A DNA stretch of 64,000 nt from Ectothiorhodospiraceae bacterium. Its GTDB lineage: Bacteria > Pseudomonadota > Gammaproteobacteria > Nitrococcales > Aquisalimonadaceae. The stretch covers positions 1 through 64,000 of the forward strand of contig JAFIFV010000135.1 of assembly GCA_020831845.1 (NCBI GenBank). Direction: 5' to 3'. Shown in pieces: positions 42,139-45,983 of the stretch (positions are counted from its first letter, which is position 1; each line of letters opens with the position of its first letter). The notes beneath the pieces are model-generated. The model saw only the letters and a program-made list of their open reading frames with translations, did not search any database and was not told where the DNA came from. Position numbers and translations under genes: made by a program.

Positions 42139-43485
42139 TCAACGTAGCACGGCACCATAGAGGTCGTGTGCATCGGCCTCTTCGATGAGCACATCCGCAA
42201 ACTGCCCCGGCCTGATTCCGGCGGCGCCCCGCAGGTGCACCAGACCGTCGATTTCCGGCGCATCGGCATAGCTGCGGGCAACGGCACCGTCACCGTCAAC
42301 CTCGTCCACGAGCACCTGCATGACCTGGCCGACGAAACGCGCCAGCCCCGCGGCACTGATGTCGGCCTGCAGTTCCATCAGTTCCCGCTTGCGCCGCTGG
42401 GCCACCTCCGTCGGCACCGCGTCAGGCAATTCATTGGCACGGGCTCCTTCCACGGGTGAATAGGTAAAGCACCCCACCCTGTCCAGTTGCGCCTCCCGCA
42501 GAAAATCCATCAGTTCCTGGAAGTCTTCTTCGGTTTCACCCGGGAATCCCACGATGAAGGTCGAGCGGATGACCAGTTCGGGACAGATTTCACGCCAGCG
42601 CCGTATGCGCTCCAGCACGGCCTCGCCGCCGGCCGGCCGGCGCATGGCCTTCAGGATACGGGGGCTTGCATGCTGCAGGGGCATGTCCAGATAAGGCAGG
42701 ATGGCACCATCCGCCATCAGCGGAATAAGCTCGTCCACGTGCGGATAGGGGTAGACATAATGCAGCCGTATCCAGATCCCCAGTTCACCCAGGGCGCGGG
42801 ACAGATCCGTCATGTGGCTCCGCCATTCCCGCTGCTGCCAGTGCGCCGCTTCGTAGCGCCGGTCGACGCCGTAAGCCGATGTATCCTGGGACACAACCAG
42901 TAACTCCCGCACGCCGTCCCGCACCAGCCTGTGAGCCTCTGCCAGCACCTCATCCACTCGCCGGCTGCCCAGCCGGCCCCGCAGATCAGGGATAATGCAG
43001 AAAGTGCATTTGTGATTGCAACCTTCTGATATTTTTAAATAAGCATAATGCCTCGGCGTGAGTTTTATGCCGCTGTCAGGCAGTAGATCCGTGAATGGAT
43101 TGCGGGCGGGCGGGGTCAGTTGTGCGTGCACCGCCGTCATCACTGCCTCGTAATCATGCGGACCGGTGATCGCCAGCACTTCGGGGAAACGATCACGGAT
43201 CACGGACTCCTTCACTCCCAGGCAGCCGGTGACCACCACCTTGCCGTTCTCGGTCAGCGCTTCACCGATCGCATCAAGCGATTCCTCCTGGGCCGCCTCG
43301 ATGAAGCCACAGATGTTCACCACCACCAGATCGGCTTCCTGATAGCCGCCGACCACCTGGTAGCCCTCGGTTCTCAACTGGGTGAGAATCCGCTCGGAAT
43401 CCACCAGCGCCTTGGGGCAGCCCAGGCTGACGAAACCGATACGTGGTGCGGCGTGCTGCTGAAGCTGATCGGAGCTGACGGACAT
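42139..43485 (-). CDS. rimO: ribosomal protein S12 methylthiotransferase RimO
   Basis: This is a 448-residue radical SAM enzyme that adds a methylthio group to an aspartate of ribosomal protein S12. The N-terminal MTTase domain has cysteines in [22 protein letters not shown] and [10 protein letters not shown]. The radical SAM cluster motif is [27 protein letters not shown] domain occupies about residues 375-448. Length and order match RimO rather than MiaB. It diverges from the FAD oxidoreductase gene with 130 bp between. Confidence 0.95.
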
Positions 43486-43615
43486 GCTGATACCCTATGG
43501 CGGAGACTCACGGAGCGCGAGCCCGCGTATGCTACTGGTCGCGACCGCGCAGCGCAAATCCAGGCCGCCTGTTTATTCATCATGGTCAGCAACTTGCGAA
43601 AACTTCATCCAAGCC

Positions 43616-44653
43616 ATGTCTAGAAAAGTGCTGATCGTCGGCCAGGGCCTGGCGGGAAGCCTGCTGGCGCACGAGCTCGACCTCCGGGGCGTGGATCTGT
43701 TGGTCATCGATCCAGGGCGCGCCGAAACCGCTACCCGGGTAGCCGCCGGGCTGCTGAACCCGTTCACCGGGCCCCGCTTCCAGAGCCCGGAGCCACCGCA
43801 GGCATGGTTCGCCAGCGCCGTTCGGGGCTGGCGGCGGATGGAGCAGCGGCTTTCGGCCAGGTTGCTGCAAGACATGAAGGTCTCTCGCCTGATACGGGAC
43901 GCGTCCGAGCTTGAGCGGCTGCGGCAACGGCGCGCCGATCCGGGCAACGGGACACTGCTGGGGGAATGGCTGCCGCCGGAGGCGAGCAGCCCGCTCAACG
44001 ACCCGCTGGGGCGCACAGAGATCCGTGCGGCACGCGTGGATCTCCCGCTTTTCCTGGACCGGACCCGGGACTGGCTGCACGAGCATGGCCGCCTGGTCTA
44101 TGAAGAACTCGATTACGCCGATCTGGCGTTCACCGCCCATGGCGCCGGCTGGAAGCACCACGAACTGGCGGCCGTCGTGTGCTGCCAGGGCTATCAGGCG
44201 CGCACCAATCCCTGGTTCGCCACCCTGCCCTGGCGCGTATCCCACGGCGAGTCGCTGGTGCTACGCGCGGCGGACGGGTGGCCTGGCCGTGCTGTCAGCC
44301 GAGGCCGGAACCTGGTGCCGCTGGGCGGGGACCAGGCATGGCTCGGCGCCACCTATGGCAGACAGACAGAACCGACAACAACAGCAACGGGACGGCAAGT
44401 GCTCCTCGACAGCCTCGGCGAGTTGCTCAAGGCCCCCCCGAGGGTCGACGTCGTGGAGCACCGCGCCGGTGTGCGTGCCGGAAACCGCCACGGCTTCTAT
44501 TTCTGTCATCGCCATCCTGACGAGTCACGGCTACTGCTCTTCGGCGGTCTCGGCTCCCGCGGCACACTGATCGCACCCGCATGCGCCAGCACGCTGGCGG
44601 CCCACCTGGCCGACGGCAGGCCGCTACCTGCATGTCCGGGACAACTGGCATGA
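43616..44653 (+). CDS. FAD-dependent oxidoreductase (DAO / MnmC-oxidase-like)
   Basis: This is a 345-residue D-amino-acid-oxidase-fold flavoprotein. The FAD-binding motif is VLIVGQGLAGSLLAHELDLRG at the N-terminus, followed by TRVAAGLLNPFTGPRF, the AAGxxNP block of this subfamily, and a C-terminal LLLFGGLGSRGTLIAPACAS loop. The fold is that of the C-terminal oxidase domain of MnmC, which removes the carboxymethyl group from cmnm5U in tRNA. It overlaps an MnmM-like methyltransferase gene by ATGA, which makes a tRNA role attractive but unproven. ATG 43616 has a poor ribosome site. Confidence 0.82.
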   Translation: MSRKVLIVGQGLAGSLLAHELDLRGVDLLVIDPGRAETATRVAAGLLNPFTGPRFQSPEPPQAWFASAVRGWRRMEQRLSARLLQDMKVSRLIRDASELERLRQRRADPGNGTLLGEWLPPEASSPLNDPLGRTEIRAARVDLPLFLDRTRDWLHEHGRLVYEELDYADLAFTAHGAGWKHHELAAVVCCQGYQARTNPWFATLPWRVSHGESLVLRAADGWPGRAVSRGRNLVPLGGDQAWLGATYGRQTEPTTTATGRQVLLDSLGELLKAPPRVDVVEHRAGVRAGNRHGFYFCHRHPDESRLLLFGGLGSRGTLIAPACASTLAAHLADGRPLPACPGQLA

Positions 44654-45210
44654 GGCGCGCGCCCCTGACCCTGCTTGCCCAGGAATGGATCGTCCAGGCA
44701 ATTGCTCCGGGTGACACGGTGCTGGACGCCACCGTGGGCAACGGCCACGACACGCTGTTTCTGGCAGAACGGGTGGCACCCGGAGGCTGTGTCTGGGGGC
44801 TGGATATCCAGCAGGCAGCGCTGGATGCAGCGCGAGAGCGCCTGGCGGCGGTAACGGATCTGCGACTGGAACTGAGATTGCTCGGGCATGAGCACCTGTC
44901 CAGTTTGAACACCGGCGCGCTGAAGGCGGCCATGTTCAATCTTGGCTACCTGCCGGGGTCCAGCCACACGGTGGTCACGCGGCCGGACACCACATGCCGC
45001 GCACTGGAGCAGGTCGTTGCGCGCCTGCGGCCCGGCGGCCGCTGTTCCATCCTGGCCTATATCGGCCACCCGGGGGGCGCGGAGGAAGCCGACGCGGTGA
45101 GGCAATGGTGCGCCACGCTGGAGCCCGGGCGCTTCCTCTGGCGGGCAGGCAATCCGCCGGGCACACCGGATACCGCGCCCCGGCTCCATCTGATCGAGCG
45201 CATGGAGTGA
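44650..45210 (+). CDS. MnmM-like SAM-dependent methyltransferase
   Basis: This is a 186-residue class I methyltransferase of the YtqB/MnmM family (formerly called rRNA methylase). Diagnostic blocks are VLDATVGNGHDTLFLAE for SAM binding, VWGLDIQQAALDAA, and MFNLGYLPGSSHTVVTRPDTT. In Gram-positive bacteria MnmM methylates nm5U-type wobble uridines of tRNA to mnm5U. It starts at ATG 44650, overlapping the oxidoreductase stop. It ends one base before the converging SDR pseudogene. Confidence 0.85.
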   Translation: MRRAPLTLLAQEWIVQAIAPGDTVLDATVGNGHDTLFLAERVAPGGCVWGLDIQQAALDAARERLAAVTDLRLELRLLGHEHLSSLNTGALKAAMFNLGYLPGSSHTVVTRPDTTCRALEQVVARLRPGGRCSILAYIGHPGGAEEADAVRQWCATLEPGRFLWRAGNPPGTPDTAPRLHLIERME

Positions 45211-45983
45211 CTACCAGGGGATGTCCCGACCATCCCAGGCGATGAATCGTCCGTTGTCCTCCCGACGGAGCCCACGGATGATGTCCAGCAACTGGCTGAC
45301 GGTTCGCCCGGCACTGAACAGCTTGTCCCGCGGCACTCGCTGCTGGAAAGGCGCGGACAGCCCGGTGTCGGTGGTCCCGGGATGCAGGGCCACGCAGATC
45401 AGGCGACAGGACTTGCGGCCCAGTTCCACCGAAAGCCCCCTGGTGAACATGTTCGCGCGGCCTTGGCGCCTCGATACGCGTACCAGCCGCCAAGCCGGTT
45501 GTCCTCGATGCTGCCCACGCGCGCAGACAGGTTCGCGATCACCGCGTGGTCGGCGTGGACAAGCAGGGGTTCGAACGCGCGGGCAACCAGCAAGGGGCCG
45601 AAGGCATTGACCTGGAAGCTGCGCATCAGCGTCTCCGGCCGCACGTCCGAGAGCTGTTTCTCCGGAAACATGCCGTGATTGTCGTGCAGCACGCCGGCCA
45701 CGTTGAGCAACAGGTGCAGCCTTTCCGCGCCATCCGCACGCACGCTTTGCACCGCCTGCTCCATGCTGTCGGTATCGGTCGTATCCAGGCTCAGCAGGCG
45801 CACCCTGTCCGGATCAGCCTGCCGCAGGCGGCATAGCCCTTCCGAGGCCTCCGGGTCGCGGGCACTGGCGTAGATGCGCGCGCACTGCGACCAATCAGCC
45901 AGTTGGCGGACGAACTCAAGCCCGATACCCCGTGACGCACCCTGGACCAGTACTTGTGTACCGTCCGGGAAAACCGTCGTCAT
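45211..45983 (-). pseudogene. short-chain dehydrogenase/reductase, frameshifted
   Basis: This is an SDR-family reading frame interrupted once. The first part, from ATG 45983, has the cofactor motif VLVQGASRGIGLEF, LLNVAGVLHD and the active-site YAYRGAKAA. The rest (MFTRGLSVELGRKSCRLICVALHPGTTDT) continues in another frame. The break is near 45454-45456, where a C-T-G leucine codon (expected KAALNMFTRG) seems to have lost one base. Restoring one base gives a full 257-residue SDR, and the remaining sequence is well conserved. It may be a recent mutation or a sequencing error. It is the last gene of the long Mrp transcript. Confidence 0.8.

Follow-up and report, generated by a model that had tools for sequence, protein, structure and literature searches.

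In E. coli, a single protein, MnmC, joins an oxidase that converts cmnm5U into nm5U to a methyltransferase that makes mnm5U. Stand-alone nm5U methyltransferases also exist, in two different families: MnmM (YtqB) of Bacillus subtilis, Staphylococcus aureus and plants, and orphan MnmC(m) (DUF752), which has been shown in Aquifex aeolicus and is found in Bacteroidota. Like MnmM, an orphan MnmC(m) needs an oxidase partner if its precursor is cmnm5U. According to Cho et al. 2023, the MnmC(o)-like enzyme was unknown both in organisms with MnmM and in those with an orphan MnmC(m), for example Bacteroides. The partner of MnmM in Firmicutes is now given as the radical-SAM enzyme MnmL (YtqA), which is listed beside MnmC for the cmnm5U-to-nm5U step (PMC12548931).

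The DNA analysed here (the window, 64,000 nucleotides of a gammaproteobacterial genome) carries a pair of genes that invites comparison with these systems. On the forward strand, a gene for an FAD-dependent oxidoreductase of the DAO fold (345 aa, 43616..44653, ATG at 43616 and TGA ending at 44653), a proposed MnmC(o)-like cmnm5(s2)U34 oxidase, is followed by mnmM, for an nm5(s2)U34 tRNA methyltransferase (186 aa, 44650..45210, ATG at 44650 and TGA ending at 45210). The two genes share a stop/start overlap, ATGA (44650..44653, forward strand), which recurs in most homologous loci and probably couples their translation. A longer oxidase frame could start upstream at 43484; the homologues start near 43616. 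The 130-bp intergenic stretch in front of the pair (43486..43615), presumably its promoter region, is shared with a divergent gene on the reverse strand (42139-43485) that resembles rimO, encoding the ribosomal protein S12 methylthiotransferase.

We hold it to be very probable that these two genes form a split counterpart of MnmC, equivalent in function to the bifunctional protein, and that their oxidase represents a distinct family of cmnm5U34 oxidases feeding either MnmM or an orphan MnmC(m). The reactions proposed for the pair are the two of E. coli MnmC (a fused MnmC(m)-MnmC(o) protein), in the same order; unlike MnmC, the pair consists of two genes, and its methyltransferase is MnmM and not a PF05430 protein. 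As in the MnmL-MnmM operon of Firmicutes, a gene for cmnm5U processing would stand beside mnmM, except that an unrelated flavoenzyme occupies the place of the radical-SAM protein.

The 186-aa protein matches the YtqB/MnmM family PF06962 (E 3.5e-35, Pfam) and passes the curated cutoff of the NCBIfam equivalog model NF053511, tRNA_U34_MnmM (170 bits for a cutoff of 135). The open reading frames, Pfam and this model thus bear out the preliminary description, which had seen here an oxidoreductase of the MnmC-oxidase fold overlapping a gene of the MnmM family by ATGA. The protein (METHYLTRANSFERASE) aligns over its full length with the MnmM/YtqB structures 8h0s, 4pon, 8h1a, 3lby and 3mti. It retains D34, N97, Y100, Y137 and H140, the counterparts of D34, N101, Y104, Y141 and H144 in B. 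subtilis MnmM (catalytic residues and residues in contact with U33/U34), whose mutation abolishes the activity of that enzyme (PMC9976899). Charge-reversal mutants at K11 and K110 of the B. subtilis protein are likewise inactive (PMC9976899), and at these two positions the window protein has Q11 and H106. Position 11 has no fixed lysine in the family, being mostly histidine in relatives from the class and histidine in the S. mutans structure 3lby, while position 110 (B. subtilis numbering) is mainly lysine among the class relatives. As it keeps the majority of the catalytic and tRNA-contact residues that were tested, the protein is, as far as sequence can tell, a true MnmM, orthologous by the equivalog model to that of B. 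subtilis, S. aureus and plants; what sets it apart from these is its FAD oxidase partner.

The association of the two genes is not particular to this locus. In 12 of the 14 other MnmM-positive genomes of our Gammaproteobacteria sample, a homologous oxidase lies directly 5' of mnmM, and the arrangement is therefore far above chance. The two genes overlap or abut in the 11 of these loci where the spacing was measured (-14 to -1 nt). A scan of the genome collection for the oxidase family yielded 80 named loci in several phyla; mnmM begins at most 100 nt downstream of the oxidase gene in 42 of them, overlapping it in 38, and lies at distances of 722 and 2,678 nt in two others. In one Omnitrophota locus the order is reversed, with mnmM directly upstream. 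Linked pairs were found in Gammaproteobacteria, Nitrosomonas, Zetaproteobacteria, Verrucomicrobiota, Planctomycetota, Kapaibacterium and Omnitrophota, and 11 further oxidase-positive genomes without linkage have mnmM at a distant site.

In an uncultured Schlesneria (Planctomycetota; L157:2977-4668), oxidase and MnmM form a single open frame of 564 aa, in which both domains are recognised (MnmM at 191 bits, DAO at E 4.4e-24). The order of the fusion, oxidase then methyltransferase, is the opposite of that in MnmC. The fused form is known from one metagenome contig only, and a related Schlesneria locus (L164) has the two on separate genes. A second candidate fusion, an open frame of 680 aa (L076), was rejected: only the DAO domain is recognised in it, the front part belongs to no family, and it is probably just a long open frame. 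As a separate observation, two genomes of Verrucomicrobiota type (G257, with loci L209 and L231, and G259, with L210 and L227) have a PF05430 protein (48-55 bits) in addition to MnmM, one of these proteins lying within a long open frame of more than 650 aa.

Co-occurrence was examined in 229 genomes of Gammaproteobacteria. MnmM scores over its cutoff in 15 of them, spread over 13 families of the sample, and the oxidase family is present in 15 as well, its members being clearly delimited (269-539 bits, the next match having 116). Both are found together in 14 genomes (Fisher p 2.7e-20). The MnmC(m) domain is present in 54 genomes, none of which is positive for MnmM or for the oxidase (p 0.025), and searches of the 14 other MnmM-positive genomes in the sample gave no mnmC. 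These p-values take no account of shared ancestry. There are two exceptions to the co-occurrence: G155 (L081) has MnmM without the oxidase, and G034 (L092), a complete genome, has the oxidase and a TIGR01212 protein without MnmM or MnmC(m). G079 has both genes, but unlinked. A split two-gene route had been presented in the preliminary description as something unusual in a gammaproteobacterium. The pair is indeed there, but it is no one-off, since the 15 MnmM-positive genomes nearly all have the oxidase and several other phyla have the pair too. The underlying idea, replacement of MnmC by two genes, gains support from the near one-to-one co-occurrence, the fusion and the fold of an N-CH2-COO(-) oxidase, tRNA nucleosides remaining unmeasured. 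In about 160 of the 229 genomes, searches whose sensitivity was not checked gave neither MnmM nor a clear MnmC methyltransferase of the PF05430 type; in many of these the pathway may stop at cmnm5U or nm5U, or proceed by other means.

The oxidase family is also present in Bacteroidota, where its company is different. Tests on 18 oxidase-positive genomes of Bacteroidota type gave MnmM in none and an orphan MnmC(m) in 16 (70-84 bits). A sample of 198 Bacteroidota genomes, drawn separately, again shows an association of oxidase and MnmC(m) (53/22/22/101, p 1.6e-13). It is only partial, 22 oxidase-positive genomes being without PF05430 (not all of these were searched for MnmM). One sampled Bacteroidota genome without MnmC(m) has the oxidase gene followed by an adjacent mnmM (L248). 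Orphan MnmC(m) differs from MnmM in its methyltransferase family and in being usually non-adjacent to the oxidase gene with which it co-occurs. Bacteroides lacks mnmC(o) though mnmC(m) is present (Cho et al.), and the activity that is missing there may be supplied by the oxidase family.

What is the oxidase itself? The window protein matches DAO (PF01266, E 3.9e-26, Pfam) and reaches no curated NCBIfam cutoff, which leaves it unnamed there; NCBIfam (June 2026) has no model for the family. An AlphaFold2 model built with 78 sequences has a pLDDT of 95. In a Foldseek comparison with the PDB, the top-ranking matches of this model are glycine oxidases and iminodiacetate oxidase, at a TM of about 0.80; MnmC (0.78-0.81) and sarcosine oxidase come next. 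These are mostly oxidases acting on N-CH2-COO(-), the very group that has to be removed from cmnm5U. By HHalign, the family matches E. coli MnmC across the entire oxidase domain (probability 98.1%). Features in common with the E. coli enzyme are the DAO fold, a G-[SAT]-[KR]-G motif similar to its G-S-R-G, and an arginine equivalent to MnmC R567 (R287 in the window), which is invariant in all 78 sequences of the family.

The window's own copy has some peculiarities. Four residues of the FAD domain that are more than 98% conserved in MnmC were compared (G518, R567, G578 and G619); the window oxidase retains G244, R287 and G316, and has H298 at the equivalent of G578, where 76 of 78 relatives have glycine. 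Within the same short segment near the flavin site (residues 288-301, positions 44477-44518), it further shows A288 where 77 of 78 relatives have proline, H292 where 69 have aspartate and Y295 where 73 have proline. The window's copy may thus be impaired or specialised without the family assignment being wrong, and our argument is carried by the class- and phylum-level data and not by this single protein. One may go further and suppose that, in this particular genome, the oxidase is decaying or altered and that MnmM mainly uses nm5U made directly by MnmEG with ammonium. MnmEG is able to produce nm5U in this way (PMC3936742), G155 has MnmM but not the oxidase, and P288, P295 and G298 are lost in the window's copy. 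Nevertheless, the frame is intact and its overlap with mnmM retained, the invariant residues R287, G244 and G316 are still present, and the structure model is confident throughout, with pLDDT above 90 over the altered blocks. We regard such a decay as unlikely, though it is the alternative that we would set aside with the least assurance.

A second possibility is that the oxidase works in small-molecule metabolism, as a ThiO/DadA-like glycine or amino-acid oxidase, and merely shares an operon with mnmM. The ThiO model TIGR02352 does score slightly above the MnmC model TIGR03197 (MnmC_Cterm) on the window protein (66.7 versus 57 bits), and the top PDB folds are glycine oxidases. But both scores are far under the curated cutoffs (250.8 and 174.2 bits, respectively), and the same is true of the family: each of the 12 class members examined hits both the MnmC1 and the ThiO model (E <= 1e-5), with scores, among the matches listed, of 57-91 bits for TIGR03197 and of 66.7 up to 107 bits for ThiO. 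A maximum-likelihood tree of 76 proteins separates three clean groups, the oxidase family (support 100/100), MnmC(o) (100/99) and ThiO-like proteins (99/96). The ThiO label of the last group is based on motif and similarity, without a family scan. The G-[SAT]-[KR]-G motif moreover stands in place of the GHFRNG-type motif of the ThiO-like sequences, and small-molecule metabolism would leave unexplained the linkage, the fusion and the 14-of-15 co-occurrence with a tRNA methyltransferase. On clade, motif and cutoff we reject ThiO itself, and the broader idea of an unconnected amino-acid oxidase appears to us quite improbable. ThiO and iminodiacetate oxidase remain informative as the closest solved folds, with the same type of chemistry on N-CH2-COO(-); they differ from our oxidase in their small-molecule substrates, their separate clade and their flavin-site motif. 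The relationship to the MnmC oxidase that had been inferred beforehand stands as far as the fold is concerned. It does not extend to a detached MnmC(o) domain, a reading that we reject on the separate clade and the score far under the TIGR03197 cutoff. The tree being unrooted, it cannot be told whether MnmC(o) or the ThiO-like group sits closer to the family.

The rest of the window's genome (4.69 Mb in 158 contigs, 89% complete) was searched for the other enzymes of the pathway. Neither the MnmC methyltransferase domain PF05430 nor an over-cutoff match to the MnmC oxidase domain TIGR03197 was found in this assembly. The preliminary description had asked whether mnmC lies elsewhere, and the matches examined as candidates for it, L001 (the best TIGR03197 match, 70 bits), L002 and L004, turned out to be DAO proteins some 415-431 aa long and were rejected. 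With a chimeric E. coli MnmG/MnmE/MnmA query, MnmE (65% identity) and MnmA (66%) were found; MnmG had no match in the assembly, whose completeness is 89%. As MnmG is required to make the substrate, its absence is likely an assembly gap, and for the same reason the absence of mnmC from this genome alone has limited weight. A classical bifunctional MnmC (L066) is present in G072, another genome of the sample and a member of the same order. That a radical-SAM MnmL gives nm5U to MnmM as in Gram-positives, the FAD protein making a different or further change to the wobble base, is the least credible alternative: an abstract in J Bacteriol of 2024 is said to place mnmL beside mnmM in Firmicutes, and TIGR01212-family (MnmL/YtqA) proteins occur in G001, G034, G090, G186 and partly G067, but none matches in the window's genome, on which MnmL as partner there was rejected, most genomes with oxidase and MnmM lack one (including Methylomonas LW13, Methylobacter tundripaludum, Nitrosomonas and Methylovulum), and the family includes members other than MnmL (the E. 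coli one is such), so that its presence proves little.

Returning to the split equivalent of MnmC, the route could run as follows. MnmE and MnmG (with MnmA for s2) would place a carboxymethylaminomethyl group on the wobble uridine, giving cmnm5(s2)U34. The FAD oxidase would then oxidise the N-CH2-COO(-) arm, and hydrolysis of the resulting imine would release glyoxylate and leave nm5(s2)U34, which MnmM would N-methylate with SAM to mnm5(s2)U34. Oxidase and MnmM would be produced from one overlapping transcription unit. The same clade of oxidases would serve Proteobacteria, Verrucomicrobiota, Planctomycetota, Kapaibacterium and Omnitrophota that bear MnmM, and Bacteroidota with an orphan MnmC(m). 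What the analysis shows is the identity of MnmM, its linkage and fusion to the oxidase, their co-occurrence, the exclusion of MnmC(m) in the class, and the fold and clade of the oxidase. The substrate and chemistry of the oxidase are inferred, as is the methylation of nm5s2U in tRNA by MnmM, there being no biochemistry and no tRNA-mass data. Independent working in E. coli (PMC3936742) makes a two-protein route plausible.

On a wider scale, we are inclined to add this unnamed DAO-fold clade to MnmC(o) and MnmL as a third kind of enzyme that processes cmnm5U34. In Gram-negative phyla it would be what MnmM is usually paired with, and in many Bacteroidota it would play that part for orphan MnmC(m); it would hence be the unknown oxidase of lineages that were described as having just a methyltransferase. 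Its independent fusion to MnmM would mean that a bifunctional enzyme of the MnmC type arose a second time. This broader proposal is probable, if less secure than the function of the pair. MnmL resolves the question of the missing oxidase for Firmicutes; if the proposal is true, the present family does so for many Bacteroidota and for those Proteobacteria, Verrucomicrobiota and Planctomycetota that bear MnmM, and the same wobble modification is attained by at least three combinations of oxidase (or its equivalent) and methyltransferase. The literature searched contains no mention of an FAD oxidase with MnmM; it did not cover the 2024 report of Jaroch et al. (J Bacteriol), whose abstract reportedly speaks of fusion proteins and alternate arrangements of the components, and part of the oxidase-MnmM finding may already be known through it. 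The question can be tested directly in genetically tractable methanotrophs and by complementation of an E. coli mnmC deletion.

Finally, the gene that follows the pair, on the reverse strand (45213-45983), encodes a short-chain dehydrogenase with a frameshift. The frame is lost at about 45450-45470, soon after the YxxxK motif, and the remainder lies in a different frame, which makes it either a pseudogene or an assembly error.
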